Of a stretch of DNA of 45,472 nucleotides, positions 1,105 through 29,412 are shown one piece after another. The stretch spans positions 1 through 45,472 of the forward strand of contig MUCK01000049.1 in NCBI GenBank assembly GCA_002816705.1, read 5' to 3'. Numbering within the stretch: position 1 is the stretch's first letter; the number at the start of each line of letters is the position of its first letter. The notes under the pieces were generated by a model, which saw only the letters and a program-made list of their open reading frames with translations, was not told the DNA's origin and ran no database searches. The translations under genes were made by a program, and so were the position numbers. Source of the DNA: SAR202 cluster bacterium Casp-Chloro-G4. Lineage in GTDB: Bacteria; Chloroflexota; Dehalococcoidia; Lucifugimonadales; JADFKI01.

Positions 1105-4100
1105 CTAGTCGGCGGCTACGTAAGCAAACCCTGATTCCCCGAGCACCTGCTGAAGACGTTCCTGTAGCTCGTCGCAAGCGTTGACGCGCACCATGGGCCA
1201 TTCCATGGTAACGATGCGGCCTTCGGTGGCTATTTCAAGCAGAACCTCGTCCTTGCCCTGGTACTCCATAAGCAGGTTCTTCAGGTCTAACAACAGGTAC
1301 TTGTCGTTGTCAGGCTGGCCGCTTTCGCGAATGCGTAGGCCCAGGCGATGTGCCACCTCTACTGGTTCCCTGACCACCACTGTAGAGGGCAAACTGGAAT
1401 TGCCGCCGTTGCCATTTGCTACGCTTGCACCGTTCGCGCCGTTCGTTTCAGACGTTTGGCCATTCAAATCTGATTGACCGTCGCTGTTGATTTGCGCTCT
1501 GGTCTCTCCTGTTGGCGCTGCCAAGACTGGTTCGGCCATTGGCTCATCGTTGGCTTCCTCTTCGTCGACAACGTCCGGGATGATGAACTCATGAACCGAA
1601 TTACACCCGATGCTCAGCTGGTCGTCGCGGTCGCGTTTCTTCACGCTACCATTAATTGTCACTAACTTACCCTCTTCCCAAAGTACGTTGCTCTGTAAGT
1701 CTTCGTTCCACACAAATATTTCTACGGACCCGTCCATAAGCGCCAGCGTTGCTATGGTGAATTGCCTGTTATCCCGGGTGTACCGACGGGTGACATCAGC
1801 AATCTGGCCCGTGACTTTCACCTTCTTGCCAGCCACGTCCCCATCCAAGTCGCTGAGGAACACTACGCTTTCGGCGTCGCTGGACTGGGCAATCAACTGC
1901 GCCAGGGAGTTGGACGAGATTGAAACTCCCAGAAGTTCCTGCTCCCACCTGCTCTTGTCGGTATCCGGGGTTTTGAGAGCCGGCACATCAATGCTGACCA
2001 TCTCAGCCGGCATGGAATCGCCCATAATCTCGAACATGGAAGTCTGGTTGGAGTCCCTCATTCGAGACTCGCTCTGCGCCAGCGACAGCATGCGGTCTAT
2101 GATCTCCAGCAGGCCATTGCGTTCACCATACTGGTCAAATGCGCCCGCCTTCATCAGGCTCTCTAGCGTTTTTCTGTTCAGGCTTCCCATGTCTGCCACC
2201 TGGCATATGTGCTCCAACGACTTGAAGCCGCCCTCCTTCTTGCGGGCATTAACCACCGACTCAACGGCACCGGAACCGACGTTTTTCACAGCGGCCAGGC
2301 CGAACCTTATCCCTTGCTTGCCGTCGATTTCTTCGATGGAGTAGTCGACTTCGCCCTTGTTGATGTCCGGCAGCATCACCGGTATATCAAGTCGCCGGCA
2401 TTCCGCTACTGCAGAGGCCACCTTCTCCGTATTATCTCGGTAGGAGTTCAGCAGGGATACCATGTACTCGGCCGTAAAGTTGGCCTTCAGGTAAGCGGTC
2501 CAATATGAGATAAGCCCGTAGCTCACGCTGTGGGCCTTGTTGAAGGCATAACCTGCGAAGGGCTCTATGAGGGCGAATATCTGATCTGCCATCTGCTGGG
2601 TGTACCCCAGGCCCAGCGCCCCGGTGATGAACTTGCCCTTCTCTTCGGCCATGATGGCCGCATCCTTTTTGCCCATAGCCTTGCGGACAATGTCGGCCTC
2701 TCCGAGAGTGTAGCCGGCGAAAGTCTGTACTATCTTCAGCACCTGGTCCTGGTAGACGATTATGCCGTAAGTCTCCTCCAGAATATCCTTGAGTGCCTCA
2801 TGAGGGTAGTTAGGCTTGGTCACACCATGCTTGGACCTGATGAAGGTGTCTATGTGCTCCATGGGACCGGGACGGTACAGCGCGATCATAGCGGCCACGT
2901 CTGCCAGAGAGGTTGGCTTCAAGTCCTTGATGTAGCGGGTCATGCCCCCGCCTTCCATCTGGAAGACCCCTACCGTGTCGCCTCTGGACAGCAACTCGAA
3001 AGTCTTGCCGTCGTCCAGCGGAATCTCGGTCAACTCGAATCGGAAGCCGCGAGTTTGGGCGATCAGGTTCCGTGCCCTGGCAAGAATGGACAGGTTGGAT
3101 AGGCCCAAGAAGTCCATCTTGAGCAGGCCCAGGGCGGCACATGGCTCCATGGTGTACTGGGTCATCGCCGCGCCGTCCTCGTTGCCCTTGGTAGGCCTTT
3201 GGAGGGGCACCACGTCGTCTAGCGGCTCCTGCGATATCACAACCCCGGCTGCGTGGGTGCTGGAGTGACGGGTCACGCCTTCCAGGCCCTGCGCTGTGTC
3301 CACCAGTTTCTTGACATCAGGTTCCGCGTCGTAAATCTCTTTGAACTCAGGGCTGGTCTCCTTGGCCTCTTGGAGAGTCATGTGCAGCCTTGTGGGAATA
3401 AGGCGCGCCACGCGATCCACATCGCCGTATGCCATGCCCAGAGCCCTACCAACGTCGCGCACCGACGCCTTGGCGCCCATGGTGCCGAAGGTAATTATCT
3501 GCGCTACGTGCTCACGGCCATACTTTTCGACGACGTAGTTGATGACCTCCTCGCGACGGTCGTCCTGGAAGTCCATGTCGATGTCTGGCATCTCTTTGCG
3601 TTCCATGTTTAGGAATCGCTCAAATACCAGCGTGTAAGAGAGCGGATTCACGTCGGTTACGCCCAGGCAGTACAGGACCAAGCTAGCGGCGGCGCTGCCC
3701 CGAACGGCAAAGAAGATATCCTCTCTCCGCACAAACTTAGCAATGTCCCAGACCACCAGGAAGTAGTTCGGGTACTGGGTGTACCTAATGACATCCAACT
3801 CGTACTCAAGCCGGTCTTCCTCAGCCTTGCCGTAGTTGGGGATGCGTTGCCTGAGTCCCTCCATACATATCTTGCGAAGGTAATCGTCACCTGAGAGGCC
3901 GTCCGGCACCGGGTACTGTGGCAAACGTAGCTTCGTGAAGTCCAACTCCAAGTTGCACATCTCTGCGATGACCTGGGTGTTGGAAATAGCCTCTGGGACC
4001 TCGGGCCACAGCGCGGCCATCTCCTCCGGGCTGCGCAGGTAGTAGGAGTGCTCCTCCATCCTCATTCGTTTGGGATCGCTTACGTTCGTATTGGTCTGTA

Positions 4101-4761
4101 TACAAAGGAGGATGTCCTGCAGGTATGCCTCTTCCTGCTTCGTGTAATGCGAGTCGTTCGTCGCCACGACAGGTATGCCCAATTCTCGATGCAATTCCAT
4201 GATGCCCGAGTTAATCTGGGGAAGATCTGGAACGTCACCGTGGCTCATCAGCTCAAGGAAGTAGCGCTCGCCCAGTAGCTCTCGATACCAAGAAGCGGCC
4301 TCCTTGGCCTGGTCCATTGTGCCGTTGGTTATTGCCTTGGGCACCTCTCCACTGGGGCAACCGGACATTACGATGAGGCCGTCGGAGAACTTCTCCAACA
4401 GCTCTCGGTCTATGCGAGGCTTGTAGTAGTACCCTTCCAGGTGTGATCGGCTGACAAGCTTTACCAGGTTTTCATATCCCTGGGCATTCTGAGCCAGCAC
4501 GGTCATATGGTAAGGCGACTTCTCATTGGGGTTGCGGCTGTGACGGCTACTCGGAGCGACGTACATCTCGCACCCTATGATTGGCTTTACTCCAGCCTTC
4601 TTTGCAATGCGGTAAAAGTCGATAGCGCCGTACATGCCGCCATGGTCGGTGATGGCTAGGCTGTTCATGCCAAGGTCCTTGGCGTGGTTTACCAGAGGTT
4701 CTAGTCGACTGAGGCCGTCCAGAAGGCTGAATTCGGTGTGAACATGAAGATGGGTGAACAA
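1105..4761 (-). CDS. dnaE: DNA polymerase III alpha subunit
   Basis: Catalytic subunit of the replicative polymerase. At 1218 aa it is normal DnaE1 size. The N-terminal PHP domain begins HLHVHTEFSLLDG with metal-site histidines and ITDHGGMYG. The C-family polymerase palm carries the aspartates of PDIDMDFQDDRR near residue 390. Next come the helix-hairpin-helix region and an OB-fold near residue 1000 (KVKVTGQIADVTRRYTRDNR). A poorly ordered Asn/Gly/Ser-rich linker near 1100-1140 precedes a small C-terminal domain; that linker is unusual. The start is TTG (4759-4761), chosen because homologues start with (M)FTHLHVH; an in-frame TAG lies 30 nt upstream and GGAG sits 12 nt before the TTG. The first in-frame ATG would cut into the PHP domain. 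Confidence 0.96.
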   Translation of the reverse strand: MFTHLHVHTEFSLLDGLSRLEPLVNHAKDLGMNSLAITDHGGMYGAIDFYRIAKKAGVKPIIGCEMYVAPSSRHSRNPNEKSPYHMTVLAQNAQGYENLVKLVSRSHLEGYYYKPRIDRELLEKFSDGLIVMSGCPSGEVPKAITNGTMDQAKEAASWYRELLGERYFLELMSHGDVPDLPQINSGIMELHRELGIPVVATNDSHYTKQEEAYLQDILLCIQTNTNVSDPKRMRMEEHSYYLRSPEEMAALWPEVPEAISNTQVIAEMCNLELDFTKLRLPQYPVPDGLSGDDYLRKICMEGLRQRIPNYGKAEEDRLEYELDVIRYTQYPNYFLVVWDIAKFVRREDIFFAVRGSAAASLVLYCLGVTDVNPLSYTLVFERFLNMERKEMPDIDMDFQDDRREEVINYVVEKYGREHVAQIITFGTMGAKASVRDVGRALGMAYGDVDRVARLIPTRLHMTLQEAKETSPEFKEIYDAEPDVKKLVDTAQGLEGVTRHSSTHAAGVVISQEPLDDVVPLQRPTKGNEDGAAMTQYTMEPCAALGLLKMDFLGLSNLSILARARNLIAQTRGFRFELTEIPLDDGKTFELLSRGDTVGVFQMEGGGMTRYIKDLKPTSLADVAAMIALYRPGPMEHIDTFIRSKHGVTKPNYPHEALKDILEETYGIIVYQDQVLKIVQTFAGYTLGEADIVRKAMGKKDAAIMAEEKGKFITGALGLGYTQQMADQIFALIEPFAGYAFNKAHSVSYGLISYWTAYLKANFTAEYMVSLLNSYRDNTEKVASAVAECRRLDIPVMLPDINKGEVDYSIEEIDGKQGIRFGLAAVKNVGSGAVESVVNARKKEGGFKSLEHICQVADMGSLNRKTLESLMKAGAFDQYGERNGLLEIIDRMLSLAQSESRMRDSNQTSMFEIMGDSMPAEMVSIDVPALKTPDTDKSRWEQELLGVSISSNSLAQLIAQSSDAESVVFLSDLDGDVAGKKVKVTGQIADVTRRYTRDNRQFTIATLALMDGSVEIFVWNEDLQSNVLWEEGKLVTINGSVKKRDRDDQLSIGCNSVHEFIIPDVVDEEEANDEPMAEPVLAAPTGETRAQINSDGQSDLNGQTSETNGANGASVANGNGGNSSLPSTVVVREPVEVAHRLGLRIRESGQPDNDKYLLLDLKNLLMEYQGKDEVLLEIATEGRIVTMEWPMVRVNACDELQERLQQVLGESGFAYVAAD

Positions 4762-4802
4762 GTGAAGTGGACACTCCGAACATAAAATCTAAAAGCGACC
4801 TT

Positions 4803-4811
4803 ATTATAGCA
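4803..4811 (-). promoter_or_regulatory. dnaE promoter, extended -10
   Basis: On the minus strand the sequence reads TGCTATAAT: a perfect -10 hexamer (4803-4808) with an extended TGn. No clear -35 is seen at 16-18 bp spacing. Predicted transcription start is about 4796, giving a leader of about 35 nt before the TTG start. Confidence 0.6.
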
Positions 4812-4956
4812 TCGGCGTATGCCACGAAGTTAAGGGGGAGATACGAATTTTATAAAGATTAATATTATTGACAAACCTGGATTTAGAAGTCTATTAACTA
4901 AGTTTTTATACTTTTCTTATACTTGGGTTAAGAATTTGTCTCGTGACCTTCGCCAC

Positions 4957-4988
4957 AAAAAAAGGCCCCGCAATTGCGGGGCCTTTTT
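4957..4988 (-). terminator. Intrinsic terminator of groEL
   Basis: The perfectly self-complementary GGCCCCGCAATTGCGGGGCC (4964-4983) is flanked by seven A's and five T's. It lies 24 bp past the groEL stop, and read on the minus strand it is a strong hairpin followed by a U-tract. The T-run on the plus strand makes it potentially two-way, but no plus-strand gene enters it. Confidence 0.9.
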
Positions 4989-5011
4989 CGATCCCTCGTG
5001 GGAAGTTTTTC

Positions 5012-6619
5012 CTAGTAGTCCATCGGAGGCATGCCAGGGCCTGGGCTTGCCTCTTTGATGTCGGCGATAAGGGACTCGGTTGTCAGCACCATTGCCGCAA
5101 CGCTGGCCGCATTTTCGATGGCGGCTCGCGTAACCTTGGCGGGGTCCATAATGCCGCGCACCAACAGGTGCGTGAAGTCGCCGACCTCGGCGTCGTACCC
5201 AAAGTCGCCCTCGCCCTTGAGGCTCTCGGAGAGGATGACCTCGCCGGATACGCCGGTGTTCTCGGCGATGAGCTTAAGGGGCTCCTGCAGTGCGCTCTTT
5301 AGGATGTTGATGGCCGTGGCCTCATCACCGGAAAGGTTCATATTATCCAGGGCTGCGCGGGCGCGTATCAGCGCAAGTCCGCCGCCCGGTACGATGCCTT
5401 CCTCAACAGCGGCTCGGGTCGCCGAAAGGGCGTCCTCAACGCGCTGCTTCTTCTCGCGAAGCTCAACCTCGGTGGCAGCGCCAACCTTGATGATGGCTAC
5501 GCCGCCGGAGAGCTTGGCCATGCGCTCCTGTAGCTTCTCGCTGTCGAAGTCTGAGGTGGTCTCCTCGATCTGTGCCTTGATCTGGTTGATTCGGCCCTGG
5601 ATGGCGTCATCAGCTCCGCCGCCGTCCACGAAAGTCGTCTCATCCTTGCTGGAGACAACGCGCCTTGCTCGGCCCAGGTCCTCTACAGTTACGGAGTCCA
5701 GCTTGCGGCCGACCTCTTCGCTGATGACCTGTCCGCCGGTCAGGATGGCCATGTCTTCGAGCATTGCCTTGCGGCGATCGCCGAATCCAGGGGCCTTCAC
5801 TGCCAATACGCTAAGCGTGCCGCGAAGCTTGTTGACTACTAGAGTAGCCAGGGCCTCGCCGTCAACGTCCTCAGCGACGATCAGGAGGTTCTTGCTGACC
5901 TGAAGGATCTTCTCCAGAGCCGGCAGAATGTCGGCAACGGCAGAGATCTTCTTGTCTGTAATGAGGATGTATGGGTCTTCCAAGACCGCTTCCATCCTCT
6001 CCTGGTCGGTGATGAAGTAGGGGGAGACATAGCCGCGGTCGACCTGCATGCCCTCTACGAACTCGGTCTCATAGGCCAAGCCCTTGGACTCTTCTACGGT
6101 GATTACGCCGTCCTTGCCGACCTTTTCCATAACGTCTGCGATGAGGTTACCCATCTCTTCGTCATGTGCAGAGAGGGATGCTACCTGCGCGATCTGGTTC
6201 TTGCCTTCTACCGTGGTAGACATGTTGCTAATCGCCTCACGAAGAACAACGACACCCTTCTCGATGCCGCGCTTCAGGGCCATTGGGTTGGCGCCGGCCG
6301 CTATGTTCTTGAAGCCCTCGTGTACGATGGCCTGGGCCAGGACCGTTGCCGTAGTGGTGCCGTCACCTGCTACGTCGTTGGTCTTGCTGGCGGCTTCCTT
6401 AAGAAGCTGAGCGCCCATATTCTCGAATGGGTCTTCCAGCTCGATCTCCTTGGCAATGGTTACGCCGTCGCTGCAGATCTGCGGCGGTCCGAACTTCTTG
6501 TCCAGAACCACGTTGCGGCCTTTGGGGCCGAGAGTGATTCCGACGGTGTTTGCCAAAGTGTCGATACCGCGCTTCATCGCGGCTCGGGCGTCCTCACTGA
6601 ACGCAAGTTGTTTGGGCAT
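5012..6619 (-). CDS. groL: 60 kDa chaperonin GroEL
   Basis: ATP-driven folding chamber that works with GroES in the cytosol. The 535-aa length fits. It begins [18 protein letters not shown], has the nucleotide-binding GDGTTT at 85-90, and is intact in equatorial, intermediate and apical domains with no frame disturbance. The C-terminus ends PGMPPMDY, a short Met/Pro tail instead of the GGM repeats of E. coli GroEL. The start has AGGAGT 6 nt upstream. It lies 52 bp after groES on the same strand with no terminator between, so it is one operon under the CIRCE-like operator in front of groES. Confidence 0.98.
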
Positions 6620-22422: not shown

Positions 22423-24027
22423 ATGCCACAGATGACTGGCGGCCAAGCATTAGCCAAGCAACTTCACCTGGAAGGGGTGCGAGTAATATTCGGATTGCCG
22501 GGCGTACAGCTTTATCACGCTTTGGACGCACTCCGTGCCGAAACGGATATCAAGTTCATCACCACCCGTCATGAGCAGGCTACGGCTTATATGGCGGACG
22601 GCTACGCCAGGGCTGGAGGCGGTATAGGCACGGCGCTGGTAGTGCCGGGCCCCGGCTTGCAGAACGCTTCTGCGGCAATTGGCACGGCCTACGCTGCGTC
22701 TTCACCAATAATGGTGATCTCGGGCCAGATCGAGCGCGACATGATTGGCGGCGACCGTGGCATGCTCCATGAGGTAAATGATCAGTTGGACACCATAAGG
22801 CCGGTGACCAAGTGGGCCCAGCGCATTCTGGACCCGAGAGAAGTGCCAGAGGCCGTACACGAAGCCTTCTACCAGCTAAAGTCTGGCAGGCCGCGTCCTG
22901 TAGAGATTGAAATCCCGCCTGAGACTCTTGCCCAATTAGCCGATGTGGACCTCATGGAGCCGGTGAGCTACCAGAGGCCAGCGGCGAGTATGGAAAGTGT
23001 CCAAGAGGCGGTGCGGGTTCTGGCAGGCGCTACCAATCCGCTGATCCTAGTTGGCGGCGGCGGCAACCAGTCCGACGCAGGGGAGGCGCTGCTAAAGGTG
23101 GCTGAGCACTTGCAAGCGCCCATAATGGCGACTGCTGAAGGCAAAGGTGCCGTATCGGACAAGCACTACCTGTCCCTGGGCACCCCGCGAACCCGAGATG
23201 ATCCATTTCACGACTACATGGCCAGGTACGACGTTATTCTTGCAGTTGGGACGCGGAATGCCTCGCCCAATATTCTGCGAGGTCAGAAGATTGTTCAGAT
23301 TGATATTGATGAGGCTGAGATCGGCAGGAACTATGCCGACACTGTTGGCGTGGTGGGAGATGCCCGGCTAACTCTGGAGGATATGCATCGGGTAATGGCA
23401 TCTACTGTGCCGCAAAGGGAAAGGCACCAGGAGGACATAGATTCGGTACGGGCGCAGTATTTCGGCGAGGCCAATGCATCGGAACCACTGGAGTCCTTCA
23501 CCAAGGCCATACGTGGAGCCATGCCTGATGACGGCATACTGGTTGCGGGCATGACGCAAATGGGCTATTACAGTCGGCTGCATTTCCCTGTATACAACTC
23601 TCGCAGCTACCTGACATCCTCATACTTCGGCAACCTGGGATTCGCATATCCTGTGGCTCTGGGTGCTAAAGTTGCCTGCCCGGATAAGGCCGTAGTAGCG
23701 GTCTCCGGCGACGGCGGCTTCATGTATAACGTGCAGGAGTTGGCCACGGCTGCGATGTACGGAATAAACGTGGTGCTAGTGGTATTTAACGATAGCGCCT
23801 TCGGCAACGTGCTTCGCGACCAGAGGAACATGTTCGAGGGGAGGGCTTACGGCTCCGAGTTGAAGAATCCTGACTTTATGAAGCTGGCTGATGCCTTCGG
23901 AATTAAAGGCATAAAAGTAGAAAATCAGGACGCGGATAGGTTGCAAGAGGTCGTGAGCGAAGCCATTAATTTCAACGGGCCAAGCCTGATTGAGGTCCCA
24001 GTGGGTGAGATGCCTTATCCCTACTAA
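22423..24027 (+). CDS. ThDP-dependent enzyme of the acetolactate synthase/benzoylformate decarboxylase family
   Basis: 534 aa with the three ThDP-enzyme domains. PYR: FGLPGVQLYHALDAL and the catalytic Glu in TRHEQATAYMADGYAR. Central: VGGGGNQSDAGEALL, IDIDEAEIGRNY. PP: the Mg/ThDP motif GDGGFMYNVQELATA...VVFND. Acetolactate synthase, sulfoacetaldehyde acetyltransferase, oxalyl-CoA decarboxylase and 2-oxoacid decarboxylases share this frame; no ilvN-type small subunit follows, so a catabolic role (decarboxylase or carboligase) is more likely than valine synthesis. The start has AAGG 8-9 nt upstream. It is isolated by a terminator before it and a converging gene after it. Confidence 0.85.
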   Translation: MPQMTGGQALAKQLHLEGVRVIFGLPGVQLYHALDALRAETDIKFITTRHEQATAYMADGYARAGGGIGTALVVPGPGLQNASAAIGTAYAASSPIMVISGQIERDMIGGDRGMLHEVNDQLDTIRPVTKWAQRILDPREVPEAVHEAFYQLKSGRPRPVEIEIPPETLAQLADVDLMEPVSYQRPAASMESVQEAVRVLAGATNPLILVGGGGNQSDAGEALLKVAEHLQAPIMATAEGKGAVSDKHYLSLGTPRTRDDPFHDYMARYDVILAVGTRNASPNILRGQKIVQIDIDEAEIGRNYADTVGVVGDARLTLEDMHRVMASTVPQRERHQEDIDSVRAQYFGEANASEPLESFTKAIRGAMPDDGILVAGMTQMGYYSRLHFPVYNSRSYLTSSYFGNLGFAYPVALGAKVACPDKAVVAVSGDGGFMYNVQELATAAMYGINVVLVVFNDSAFGNVLRDQRNMFEGRAYGSELKNPDFMKLADAFGIKGIKVENQDADRLQEVVSEAINFNGPSLIEVPVGEMPYPY

Positions 24028-24651: not shown

Positions 24652-25752
24652 TTACGTTAGCGTGTAGGGTAAGGAAAGCTCCCCGCAGATATCTTGGAAC
24701 CACTCAATGACCTCGGGATGGAGAGGAATACCTTCTATCTTGCGCTTGGCCTCCTCTTCGGCTTCAGGCCTACCCGGATAGAGCACCCTGTCGTGGCCCT
24801 TAGCCGGCTTCGTGGACTCCAGCATTTGAATCCACTCATCCATGGTGCGTTTGAACTCGGCTGTGTCCATGAAGGCCTCTACGCTATAGGCCGCGACGTA
24901 ATGGCCAAAGTTGGGTCGGCCAGGATTTACGCCGTAACCTCCGCCTGAAAGCACTCCCCCAAGAATATCCACTATGCACGCAAGGCCGTAGCCTTTGTGG
25001 GATCCCATCTCGCGTGTGCTGCCCACCGGCAATAAGAAGGACGTTGCCCTGCCCTCGTATCCAGGTACGGGCGGCGGGACATTCTCCATTATGGGCACTC
25101 CGTCTGCATCGCCAACCCAGCCGCCGACCAAGTCGTTTCCTAGCCTTCGCGCCAGCCCCAACTTGTTGCCCGCAATAGTGCTGGTAGCCGCGTCAAAAAC
25201 GAAAGGAGGCTCCTTGTCAGCCGGGGCGGCTACTGCAATAGGGTTGGTTCCCATTCGCGGCTCGGCCCCGAAAGTAGGCAGCACGCTGGGCGGGCACGAA
25301 GTCATGCACACGCCGATCATGTCGTGTTCCAGTGCCATCATCGCATGGTAGGATGCCATGCCCAGGTGGCGTCCGTTGCGAATGGTGACCATTCCCACGC
25401 CCGTGTTCTTCGCCTTCTGGATGGCTATCTCCATGGCTTTAGGAGCGATGATAGTCCCCAGGCCTCTGTCGGAATCGATATTGGCTGTGGCGGGCGTCTC
25501 TCGGAGTATTTTCCAGTTGGGGTGTGGATTTATGGTTCCATCGTTATAACCATTTACGTAGGAGCGCAGCATGTTGGATACGCCGTGAGTCTCTACGCCT
25601 CGCAGGTCTGCCTTGACCATAACGTCTGCGCCCAGGACGCAGTCGCTCTCATCAAGACCCATCTTACGGAACACGCTGGTGACTGTTTCCCGTAACGCAT
25701 CTTCTTGGACCTTGACTGCTATATCTGGCGGTACTTTGAACTGCTCTAACAA
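24652..25752 (-). CDS. Ldh-family (malate/L-sulfolactate/ureidoglycolate) NAD(P)-dependent dehydrogenase
   Basis: 366 aa of the type-2 malate/lactate dehydrogenase fold, unrelated to Rossmann LDHs. Seen: ADLRGVETHGVSNMLRSYV near the N-terminus (catalytic His of THG), then TIRNGRHLGMASYHAMMAL, GTNPIAVAAP, FVFDAATSTIAGNKL and HKGYGLACIVDILGGVLSGGG. Substrates in this family include malate, (R)-sulfolactate, ureidoglycolate and 2,3-diketogulonate; none can be picked. The start is TTG with GGAGG 6 nt upstream. The upstream MFS gene ends 26 bp before it on the same strand, so substrate uptake and oxidation are probably linked. Confidence 0.87.
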   Translation of the reverse strand: MLEQFKVPPDIAVKVQEDALRETVTSVFRKMGLDESDCVLGADVMVKADLRGVETHGVSNMLRSYVNGYNDGTINPHPNWKILRETPATANIDSDRGLGTIIAPKAMEIAIQKAKNTGVGMVTIRNGRHLGMASYHAMMALEHDMIGVCMTSCPPSVLPTFGAEPRMGTNPIAVAAPADKEPPFVFDAATSTIAGNKLGLARRLGNDLVGGWVGDADGVPIMENVPPPVPGYEGRATSFLLPVGSTREMGSHKGYGLACIVDILGGVLSGGGYGVNPGRPNFGHYVAAYSVEAFMDTAEFKRTMDEWIQMLESTKPAKGHDRVLYPGRPEAEEEAKRKIEGIPLHPEVIEWFQDICGELSLPYTLT

Positions 25753-25778: not shown

Positions 25779-27065
25779 TCAACTTTGTCTCTCCGCAGGT
25801 TTGCCCAGGGTAAGAATCAACGGGATGGCTACGAGCACGCTGAACGCCATAATCATGAAAGGCTCCCGGTAGTTGCCTCGCACGTCAAAGACCCACCCTA
25901 CCAGCACCGGGCCTGCCACACCGAAAATAGCGCTGGTCGTCATCATTGTCCCCATTACTGAGCCGTAACTGCGCCGACCGAAAAGGTCTGCTATCAGCGC
26001 GAACCGCACGGGAATAGACGCACCGAAGCCGATTCCCCAGGCCACTAGGAATACTATCAGATGCCAGGGTGAAGAGCTGAAGGAGAATGCCAAGGTGCCC
26101 ACAAACTGGAAAACGAAGGAGATGGCGATCAGTTTTCGCTTGTCCATCTTGTCGCCGAAGTAGCCGCTGGCCAATCTTCCGATAACGCTGAACATAGAAA
26201 CGCCCAGGATGACCAGGGCGGCTGTTGTTCTACTCATACCGAAGCTTGTAATGGCCGGAATGTGATGGATCGATGCAGAAATGATGAACTGCGAAGCGCC
26301 CATAGAGAGGGCCAACTGCCAGAAGGCTTTCGTCTTCAAGGCCTGCTTCGCCGTGAAGTTGGCCTCCTTGGCACGGCCGGGCGTCACTACACCAGTTTTT
26401 TCATCTACCTCGTCTTCTGAATCCAGAGCGGGGTCCAGACCATCTGGAAAGAGGCCGTGATCCTCCGGCCTACTCTTCATCGTGAAGGACACGGGTATGC
26501 CGACGAGGAAGAACCCTATGCCTATGTATACGAGGCCTGTGCGCCAGTCTGTGGCGGCGATGAGCCAAACGACGATCGGAACCAGTATGCCGCCCAGACC
26601 TGATCCGGCCATAGTTAGAGACATAGCCTTGGATCGTTTCTTTACAAACCAGTTGGCCACCGTGGTGGTGACGATCAGGAAGGTACCGAAGGAGAGGCCT
26701 ATTGTTATGACGAGAAATGCTGCGTAGAACTGCCACAGGGACTGAATACGGCTCAGGAGAATGAAGCCTAACGAAAGAACAACCGTGCCGAAAAGCATTA
26801 CATTTCGAGGGCCGAACTTGTCTATGAAATAGCCAACGAAAGGGGAGATGGCGCCGGTCTCGGTGCGCTGCAGGGACATGGCTGCGGATGTGGTGGCGCG
26901 ACTCCAGCCAAACTGATCAACGATAGGGTCGAAGAATGCGCCGAAGCCTTGCCAGAATGCGCCGGAGGCGTACCCCTGGCTTATTGAGCCTCCCAACACG
27001 ATCCACCAACCGTGAAAAACGCGCTTCCTTCGCTGGGCAAGAGACTGAGGAAGAATTTTTACCAA
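25779..27065 (-). CDS. MFS transporter (monocarboxylate/oxalate-formate type)
   Basis: 428-aa 12-helix transporter. Starts RVFHGWWIVLGGSISQGYASG, typical of the OFA/MCT group, with the A-motif-like GYFIDKFGPRNVMLFG after helix 2 and the repeated GYFGDKMDKRKLIAIS after helix 8. A charged loop rich in Asp/Glu separates the two halves. TTG at 27063-27065 is chosen: GGAG lies 5 nt before it; the longer frame from 27149 would add 28 residues unlike the family. It is co-directional and close to the Ldh-type dehydrogenase, suggesting import of that enzyme's 2-hydroxy-acid substrate (inference). Confidence 0.85.
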   Translation of the reverse strand: MVKILPQSLAQRRKRVFHGWWIVLGGSISQGYASGAFWQGFGAFFDPIVDQFGWSRATTSAAMSLQRTETGAISPFVGYFIDKFGPRNVMLFGTVVLSLGFILLSRIQSLWQFYAAFLVITIGLSFGTFLIVTTTVANWFVKKRSKAMSLTMAGSGLGGILVPIVVWLIAATDWRTGLVYIGIGFFLVGIPVSFTMKSRPEDHGLFPDGLDPALDSEDEVDEKTGVVTPGRAKEANFTAKQALKTKAFWQLALSMGASQFIISASIHHIPAITSFGMSRTTAALVILGVSMFSVIGRLASGYFGDKMDKRKLIAISFVFQFVGTLAFSFSSSPWHLIVFLVAWGIGFGASIPVRFALIADLFGRRSYGSVMGTMMTTSAIFGVAGPVLVGWVFDVRGNYREPFMIMAFSVLVAIPLILTLGKPAERQS

Positions 27066-27223
27066 AGGCACTCCAACTGGGCACGAGGCCCCATATGCAA
27101 GACAATTAATGAATTGCAATGCATATCTTAACGCCCTATTCGCAGGCATGTAAACCGTTTTTGCTTTCTATTTAGAAGTAGGGATATTGGCCATGTTGAA
27201 GCCCTTTTGAAAAGCCAATTGTC

Positions 27224-27253
27224 TTGGTAAGGGGCGAACAATTAATGTAAACT
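27224..27253 (+). promoter_or_regulatory. Possible promoter of the carbamoyltransferase-fold gene
   Basis: TTGGTA (27224-27229), 18-bp spacer, TAAACT (27248-27253). Predicted start near 27260, about 30 nt before the preferred ATG. Moderate match only. Confidence 0.4.
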
Positions 27254-27290
27254 CGTTATGCGTCCCTTACCAATAATCCGTGGAGCGAAT

Positions 27291-28193
27291 ATGCCGAAAT
27301 TCTCCCATCTGACAAATACCGCCCAGATCGAACGCACGTGGCTTGAAGCTGAACTGTTTCCAATGTGCGAAAGGATACGGAAGTGGGACGGCAAAGGGCC
27401 TGACCTAACCGGTCGATCCCTCTACTGTCTTTTCTACGAACCCAGTCTCCTCACCAGGACATCCTTTGAGCGGGCTATGGGGCTTCTGGGAGGACAGTCC
27501 TACCATACCGAGGATGCCTCGCAGTTTTTCCCGGTGACGAGCCCTAATTACGTGGACAACGTGGTCAACATCCTGGCAAGCCTTCACGTAGATATGGTGG
27601 TGTTGCGCTGCAGCGACGACGGTGTTGTGGAGCGGGCGGAATTTGCTGATGCGCTGCCCATCATAAATGGCGGTAGCCTGGAGGACCACCCAACGCAGGC
27701 TTTGGCCGATATCTACACCCTTCATCGGGAACTCGGCGGTGTCGACGGCGCCAAGGTTGTGGTGGTAGGCCGCCTGGAGCATCGGAACGTCAACGCGCTG
27801 CTTAAGGGACTGGCCCTTTTCAAGAACGTCAAAGCCACGCTGATTCCGCTAAGCGGACAGGCCGACCCTGATGTGGTTGCCTATTGCGAGAAGAAGGGCA
27901 TGGAGATCACTTTGGAGCGGGATATGGAGGCTGTCCGCGATGCCGACGCCATTTACCTGAACGCCCCACGCACGGTTGCCCACGTTCAACTACTGCGAAG
28001 CCGTCATGCGTTGGATTTAACAATCGACAAGAAGTTCATGTCCATGCTAAAGCCCAACTGTGTAATCATGGACCCCATGCAGCGCAGCGGTGACTTTTCG
28101 GTGGAGGTTGCCGATGAGAGGTTGGCCTTCTATCGACAGTCGGAGAATGGCCTCATCGTTAGGATGGCCGTTCTGGCGCAGACTCTTAGCTAA
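27291..28193 (+). CDS. Aspartate/ornithine carbamoyltransferase-fold protein with altered carbamoyl-phosphate site
   Basis: 300 aa, the full ATCase/OTCase length, both domains present. Kept: HPTQALADIYTL, an Arg in VVLRCSDDG, and GRLEHRNVNALLKGLALF. Changed: the carbamoyl-phosphate loop STRTR reads SLLTR at 52-56, so the residue equivalent to catalytic Arg54 is Leu, and the region that normally supplies Lys84 (FFPVTSPNYVDN) has no lysine. The usual HPLPR near the C-terminus is DPMQR. So it is a real, intact gene of the family, but classic pyrimidine or arginine synthesis activity is doubtful. ATG 27291 has GGAG 5 nt upstream; the ATG at 27258 does not. No other pyr or arg gene is adjacent apart from pyrH far downstream. 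Confidence 0.78.
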   Translation: MPKFSHLTNTAQIERTWLEAELFPMCERIRKWDGKGPDLTGRSLYCLFYEPSLLTRTSFERAMGLLGGQSYHTEDASQFFPVTSPNYVDNVVNILASLHVDMVVLRCSDDGVVERAEFADALPIINGGSLEDHPTQALADIYTLHRELGGVDGAKVVVVGRLEHRNVNALLKGLALFKNVKATLIPLSGQADPDVVAYCEKKGMEITLERDMEAVRDADAIYLNAPRTVAHVQLLRSRHALDLTIDKKFMSMLKPNCVIMDPMQRSGDFSVEVADERLAFYRQSENGLIVRMAVLAQTLS

Positions 28194-28206
28194 GGCCTAT
28201 GGGCTT

Positions 28207-29412
28207 TTAGGCTCTTGCCCTCAAAAGCCGCGCGGCGAACGGTGCTACGGCAGGGCCGAACGACCGAATTATCTTTCGCATGTTAGCGTGGCGCAGCACC
28301 TTCATGATAATGTTACTGTGCCAATCGAAAGAGAAATCAGGCGCGTTCATGACCTCATTGAGCATCTCTTCAGACAAGAACTCCTCAAGCAATGACTCCA
28401 ACTGCTGGTCGTTCAGGGTCTCGAATAACAGCCGAGCGTAGTAACCGACGCGAAGCTCCTTGCCGAACACGCCCTTCCAAGCCTTTTCGTAATGTGCAAG
28501 CTGGCGTGACGAGAAGTTGTCGGCCTCAAAGGCCTCGCCAATCGTTTGCGCTGCAAATTCCCCTGAAAGCAGGGCGTAGTAAATGCCGCCCCCGGTAGTC
28601 GGCTTTACAAGTCCTGCCGAGTCCCCAACCACCAGTACCCGTGCCCCGTAGGTCTTGGGCAGTGGCCGTATGGGGATGCCCCAGGTCTGGGTCTGGCCTA
28701 ACACGTTCTTTACTACTCCACTGTCCTTCAGGTTTTCAAGCAGCCGGTCCATATGCCGTCCCACCTGTTCCCGCGGGGCCATTCCCACCAACGCTTTGCC
28801 GTTGGTAAGAGGGACTATCCACCCGAACGAGCTGGGCACGACGCTGTCTCCGACAAATACCTCGGTTTCCTGAAGCTCTGGGGCGTCCACGATGGACTGA
28901 CAGCCTATCATGTAGTCCTCTGGCTTACCGCTGGCCAGCCCGGCCATGCGCAGTAGAGGCGAGCCAAACCCGCCCGCGATGACGAGCATCTGGGCCTCCA
29001 AGGTAGTCTCCTCGCCATTGCAGGTGGCTGTGACGCTGGCGCAGGTTTTGCTGATTTCGAGGCTTGTTACTCTATGCTCAAGTAGGTAGTTAGCCCCGGC
29101 CTCTTGGGCTTTTACGGCGAAGGAATTCACATAGGCAACACGGTCCACGATGTAGGCCTGTGGCTCGGATTTTTCTACGCGGAAGCGATGTCCGGAGGGC
29201 GATACAATTGTGGCAGCGCTGGCCTCTCGATATACGTGTTCTGGGTTCGGCGGAAACTTGGTGACGCACTCTTTGCCGATTATGCCTGTGCAAAGCTTGT
29301 CGCCTACCTGGGCACGCCAATCCAAGACGGCTACGTCCCGGCCTGCCTGCGCCAGACGCAAAGCAGCCATGTTTCCCGCTGGTCCGGCGCCTATCACGAT
29401 TACGTTATACAA
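28207..29412 (-). CDS. Geranylgeranyl reductase-family FAD-dependent oxidoreductase
   Basis: 401-aa flavoprotein. N-terminal FAD-binding VIGAGPAGNMAALRLAQAG, a redox-type Cys in GDKLCTGIIGKE, and the GD motif VLVVGDSAGLVKPTTGGGI, all features of the ChlP/digeranylgeranylglycerophospholipid reductase group that saturates isoprenoid chains. The C-terminal alpha-helical part is present. With uppS, dxr and ispG in the same window it could saturate polyprenyl or quinone side chains, but that is inference; related flavoproteins act on other substrates. The start is TTG (29410-29412), because homologues begin (M)YNVIVIGAG. It converges with the carbamoyltransferase-fold gene with 13 bp between. Confidence 0.82.
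   Translation of the reverse strand: MYNVIVIGAGPAGNMAALRLAQAGRDVAVLDWRAQVGDKLCTGIIGKECVTKFPPNPEHVYREASAATIVSPSGHRFRVEKSEPQAYIVDRVAYVNSFAVKAQEAGANYLLEHRVTSLEISKTCASVTATCNGEETTLEAQMLVIAGGFGSPLLRMAGLASGKPEDYMIGCQSIVDAPELQETEVFVGDSVVPSSFGWIVPLTNGKALVGMAPREQVGRHMDRLLENLKDSGVVKNVLGQTQTWGIPIRPLPKTYGARVLVVGDSAGLVKPTTGGGIYYALLSGEFAAQTIGEAFEADNFSSRQLAHYEKAWKGVFGKELRVGYYARLLFETLNDQQLESLLEEFLSEEMLNEVMNAPDFSFDWHSNIIMKVLRHANMRKIIRSFGPAVAPFAARLLRARA

Follow-up and report, generated by a model that had tools for sequence, protein, structure and literature searches.

The window studied here (the whole stretch of 45,472 nucleotides) encodes a protein resembling aspartate transcarbamylase (ATCase) in which residues that all characterised transcarbamylase classes use on carbamoyl phosphate have been replaced. 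This raises the question of whether the gene is decaying, whether its product still works on carbamoyl phosphate, or whether the fold has been turned to another ligand.

Gene, reading frame and predicted fold

27291..28193, + strand: ATCase-like carbamoyltransferase-fold protein without the SxRT arginine, Lys84 and HxLP (300 aa plus stop)

The ATG at 27291 is in frame with the stop codon at 28191-28193; a longer open reading frame starts at 27258, and the orthologs back 27291 as the start. The first-pass annotation had described a full-length carbamoyltransferase-fold protein with its own ribosome site and a possible promoter. Full length is borne out by the 300 residues and by Pfam matches above the cut-offs for both domains (OTCace_N 5e-22, OTCace 2e-13), and a GGAG ribosome-site-like motif was seen by eye immediately upstream of 27291, while a sigma-70 scan of the + strand from 27000 to 28400, covering the sigma-70 type only, returned no promoter site. 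The transcarbamylase superfamily is recognised by the OTCace_N and OTCace domains in a common fold, and the window protein has both: its alignment-based AlphaFold2 model has a mean pLDDT of 90, and the top Foldseek matches of the model in the PDB are Arabidopsis ATCase structures, with TM values of 0.85-0.89. At the level of the model, the fold is thus shown to be ATCase-like. Scores against the NCBIfam equivalogs were below cut-off for both PyrB (TIGR00670, 120.1 bits, cut-off 236.95) and ArgF (TIGR00658, 81.6 bits, cut-off 280.85), and no SMG loop corresponding to the ArgF DxxxSMG motif was found in the protein sequence.

Active-site motifs across the clade

Orthologs were searched for in 250 genomes of the order (E <= 1e-30), and 40 of these gave a match. 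Two (G475 and G496, 33% identity) represent a different group and were left out, giving 38 genomes. Of these, 37 supplied the 39 sequences studied, two of them with two copies each, and the remaining genome holds a fragment. The orthologs, all from one order, are 52-88% identical to the window protein. One alignment combined them with the window protein, ArgI, YgeW and the local pyrB and argF proteins, using E. coli PyrB from the MG1655 record as the reference (mature E. coli numbering). The segments that matter for the active site are:

27444..27458, + strand: SLLTR, residues 52-56, the former SxRT phosphate-binding loop (coordinates computed from the start at 27291)
27522..27545, + strand: QFFPVTSP, residues 78-85, the former 80s loop, without Lys (alignment)
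27687..27698, + strand: HPTQ, residues 133-136, the carbamoyl-binding motif, kept (alignment)
27768..27788, + strand: GRLEHRN, residues 160-166, Asp162 replaced by Arg, Arg167 equivalent kept, Thr168 replaced by Asn (alignment)
27957..27983, + strand: LNAPRTVAH, residues 223-231, where the RxQxER aspartate-binding loop was (alignment)
28071..28085, + strand: DPMQR, residues 261-265, at the HPLPR site (alignment)

Three motifs are common to all known transcarbamylases according to the 2015 review by Shi and colleagues: SxRT, which binds the phosphate of carbamoyl phosphate, HPxQ, which binds the carbamoyl group, and HxLP with its cis peptide (PMC4581275). The SxRT loop of the window protein aligns with that of E. 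coli PyrB without gaps (FFEASTRTRLSFE in E. coli PyrB, FYEPSLLTRTSFE in the window protein), with Thr53 and Arg54 both replaced by Leu and with Ser52, Thr55, Arg56 and Ser58 unchanged. Since the alignment is gap-free, no neighbouring residue stands in for Arg54, and the idea that a displaced loop brings another Arg into its place is ruled out. The replacement of STRTR by SLLTR reported in the first-pass annotation is thereby confirmed and extends to the whole clade, in which the Arg54 position is Leu (32 sequences), Ile (6) or Val (1), position 53 is Phe or Leu instead of Thr, and Ser52, Thr55 and Arg56 are retained. The missing Lys in the K84 segment and the change of HPLPR to DPMQR proved equally real, with the same kinds of change in all 39 sequences: the Lys84 position holds Thr, Asn, Ser, Glu or Ala and never Lys, the Ser80 position is Phe in 38 of 39 and is followed by an invariant Pro81, and HPLP has become (Asp/Asn)-Pro-(Met/Ile)-Gln, with Gln in every sequence. 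Further changes go beyond that earlier account. The RxQxER motif of the 240s loop is absent from the clade, its place being taken by LN-x-P-R-T-x-A-H, a loop within which the residue-by-residue matching differs between the two alignments made, and the Asp162 position is Arg in 38 of 39 sequences. The HPTQAL segment had been described as intact, and HPxQ is indeed invariant, as are Thr55, Arg105, His134, Gln137 and Arg167 (39/39). Of the features that mark the superfamily, HPxQ and the Arg of strand beta4 (Arg105) are therefore present, while SxRT and HxLP with the cis peptide are gone; of those that mark PyrB, RxQxER and the Lys84 and Ser80 that an adjacent subunit contributes are all missing.

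These losses do not carry equal weight. Arg54 and Lys84 had both been put forward as central to carbamoyl phosphate binding, also at the matching OTCase residues; this stands for Arg54, as the SxRT Arg is found in all nine characterised classes, and does not hold generally for Lys84, as the 80s-loop residue is Lys in some classes, Gln in OTCase, PTCase and YTCase, and Trp in AOTCase/SOTCase (Table 1 of PMC4581275). Loss of Lys84 alone thus carries little information, and what stands out is that the SxRT Arg and HxLP are gone. Among the closest known proteins, Arabidopsis PyrB (plant-type ATCase, 6ypo/6yw9) has the same full-length fold at about 31% identity and shares the HPxQ, Arg105, Thr55 and Arg167 equivalents, whereas the window protein has no SxRT Arg, Lys84 or RxQxER loop and carries DPMQ for HPLP. 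UGTCase (ureidoglycine transcarbamylase) from Rubrobacter likewise belongs to the ATCase branch, has diverged within it and acts on a substrate other than aspartate; by the review's description, however, it keeps S74-T75-R76-T77, Ser102/Lys106 and H(T/S)LP (PMC4581275). YgeW (YTCase) is another carbamoyltransferase-fold paralog, with its second substrate not known as of the 2015 review, but it retains the SxRT Arg and HxLP, can bind carbamoyl phosphate (PMC4581275) and is distant in the tree.

The protein could still be a carbamoyl phosphate-dependent transcarbamylase that acts on a different acceptor, the phosphate being bound by Arg161, Arg106 or other residues. The invariant Arg105, Thr55, His134 and Gln137, the near-invariant Arg in place of Asp162 and the variability of the 80s-loop residue among known classes are compatible with such an enzyme, and it is conceivable that Arg161 and further new polar residues hold a phosphate from another side, which counts against the explanation favoured below. 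Against it, both SxRT and HxLP, present in every characterised class (PMC4581275), are lost, and the strictly aliphatic position 54 suggests selection for an uncharged environment; we regard continued carbamoyl phosphate use as improbable.

Conservation and selection

Whether the relatives share these changes had been set as a check, and they do, as the changes are fixed across the clade (39/39), which excludes both chance and sequencing error as the cause. Among 13 ortholog pairs with usable dS, dN/dS was approximately 0.04-0.13 (NG86), values that are approximate as several dS exceed 1. Columns conserved to at least 97% make up 74 of the 300 positions overall versus 22 of the 33 aligned positions that we take to be the active-site region, a list based on ATCase structures that includes neighbours of contact residues and overlaps Table 1 of PMC4581275 (hypergeometric p 6e-8). 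The low dN/dS together with the clustering of conserved columns at the old active site indicates a functional, remodelled pocket rather than decay: purifying selection on the protein is strong, and the pocket is still constrained, in a new form. Pseudogene decay or an error of assembly might have been suspected from the lost catalytic residues and from a host bin that is 67% complete; with 39 sequences in 37 genomes, no internal stops among the matches listed and such low dN/dS, a pseudogene or sequencing error is refuted, and we give this explanation next to no weight.

Paralogs, origin and distribution

A PF02729 search of 18 genomes, with the sequences then read, found three or four family members in most of the near-complete genomes tested, including canonical pyrB and argF forms. 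The genus of the window differs: its two genomes (G000 and G346; the window genome and the other one, 67% and 89% complete) contain only argF besides the window-type gene, and a search of them turned up no canonical pyrB and no orthologous pyrC. The question of canonical pyrB and argF elsewhere in the genome is thus answered positively for most near-complete relatives, and for argF only in the two incomplete bins of the genus. Relatives of the genus in the same family carry pyrB and pyrC side by side, and we take gaps in the assembly, or loss of the pair as a block, to be more probable than replacement by the window gene. Because both bins are incomplete, replacement of pyrB is not concluded; a role as the sole ATCase of the genus is the less likely reading, pyrC being missing along with pyrB. 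The coexistence with pyrB and argF in most near-complete genomes of the clade, together with the clade-wide fixation of the changes, fits the earlier suggestion that the product is either a paralog acting on a different substrate or not an enzyme at all.

The second of these options would make the protein a non-catalytic relative, acting as a sensor or regulator either through binding a metabolite with a carbamoyl group or as a partner of the canonical ATCase. It would account for the loss of carbamoyl phosphate residues used by all characterised classes while the fold and the carbamoyl subsite remain, and for the canonical pyrB in most near-complete relatives. It also has a precedent in the pseudo-dihydroorotase of P. 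aeruginosa ATCase, an inactive homolog required by a pathway enzyme (PMC7053772). The invariant or near-invariant new polar residues of the cleft (Arg161, His164, Asn166, Asn224 and Gln264) nevertheless resemble a rebuilt active site, and the nearest pyrB is distant and on another branch, which makes mixed trimers unlikely. We consider a non-catalytic role unlikely overall, with a stronger case than continued carbamoyl phosphate use.

The window clade was monophyletic (100) both in a quick tree of 78 proteins and in a careful tree of 33 proteins (100/100 in the latter). Seven proteins from the phylum (L152-L158) joined it as its sister group in both trees (98/96 in the careful one), although the window clade sits on a long stem (1.5-1.9 changes per column), so that long-branch effects may touch the placement. 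Like the window clade, the sister proteins are unnamed third paralogs, their genomes holding one to three additional family members, in which Lys84 is gone (Arg, Gln, Asp or Ala instead) and an extra residue precedes the Arg105 strand; their 80s loop is shortened and they have RAHxxR-like loops. Unlike the window clade, they keep STRTR, Arg229, HPLP and Asp162. Most simply, the phosphate site was lost in steps, in which the Lys84 loop and the aspartate loop changed first and the SxRT Arg and HxLP were lost later. One sister-group gene, in L153, lies between a CofD-family gene (407-1504) and a gene for an adenylation-carrier-thioesterase protein (3251-5992), which suggests a biosynthetic setting at that locus; conservation of the setting was not seen. 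Another divergent ATCase-like group (L091 8961-9899, L092 7962-8903, and L006) has kept STRTR, with Ser, Phe or Ile at the Lys84 position, TDLP in the Arg229 region and HPFPR instead of HPLPR.

The order was covered by the 250 genomes searched, and the class and phylum were sampled; in the phylum sample, all 19 proteins whose motifs were read carry STRTR. A scan of genome contigs with one protein as query gave a single match, an ordinary OTCase-like protein, no relatives were found in viral contigs, and plasmids yielded only distant family members (<34% identity among the matches listed). A significant number of genomic sequences without essential motifs of the known transcarbamylases has been remarked on before (PMC4581275), so the existence of divergent relatives is no novelty in itself, and we found no description in the literature of a clade with these losses. 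The window gene falls in a branch of the aspartate transcarbamylase family that is conserved in one bacterial order and had no name before.

Gene neighbourhood

28207..29412, - strand: geranylgeranyl-reductase-family flavoprotein, convergent neighbour (TIGR02032 above cut-off)

The first-pass annotation had the gene kept next to an isoprenoid-reductase-like flavoprotein. As a frequent convergent neighbour this holds: by our own count, 25 of the 38 clade loci have the flavoprotein adjoining or closely behind the gene, as do 8 of the 15 families. Convergent genes are not co-transcribed. An obligatory partnership is unsupported by the search of all 250 genomes of the order: the flavoprotein occurs in 81 of them, many without a window-type gene, and is missing from several that have one. 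In one genome (G506), two very similar copies of the gene lie on two contigs (L083 on C17, L084 on C21) with the same flavoprotein neighbour on both, perhaps through strain mixture or duplication. A pterin dehydratase-like gene is often nearby too, and the remaining neighbours vary from family to family; the gene context is too variable across families to name a pathway. Upstream in the window lie genes for a thiamine-diphosphate enzyme (22423-24027), an LDH2/sulfolactate-dehydrogenase-like protein (24652-25752) and an MFS transporter (25779-27149), and some other families also have members of the thiamine-diphosphate-enzyme and LDH2-like clusters close to the gene.

Proposed function

As the residues that grip the phosphate are lost while the fold and the carbamoyl pocket are kept, either the substrate must differ or the usual reaction is no longer catalysed. 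The explanation we lean towards, with moderate confidence, is an ATCase-derived third paralog, belonging to an order-level clade, whose active site has been remodelled to take a different ligand in place of carbamoyl phosphate plus aspartate. An enzyme with a changed substrate is probably the form this takes, ahead of a binder or regulator. Such an enzyme would form the usual trimer and bind a neutral carbamoyl, ureido or amide compound, the carbonyl of which may be held by HPxQ, Arg105 and Thr55; judging from the sequence, a hydrophobic patch (Phe/Leu53, Leu54, Phe80) would occupy the old phosphate position, and the carbamoyl, ureido or amide group could then be transferred or hydrolysed. More tentatively, and with rather less confidence, the clade might be a new class of enzymes that has the transcarbamylase fold and makes no use of carbamoyl phosphate: the carbamoyl subsite would now serve a neutral ureido or amide substrate, and the hydrophobic patch would stand where the phosphate clamp was. 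The favoured explanation makes a testable prediction, namely zero carbamoyl phosphate turnover.

The automatic label "aspartate carbamoyltransferase" is probably wrong for the window gene. The phosphate clamp is common to every class in the 2015 review, and a conserved clade has here lost it; together with an intermediate sister group, this clade offers a route to ask how a carbamoyl phosphate enzyme becomes something else.
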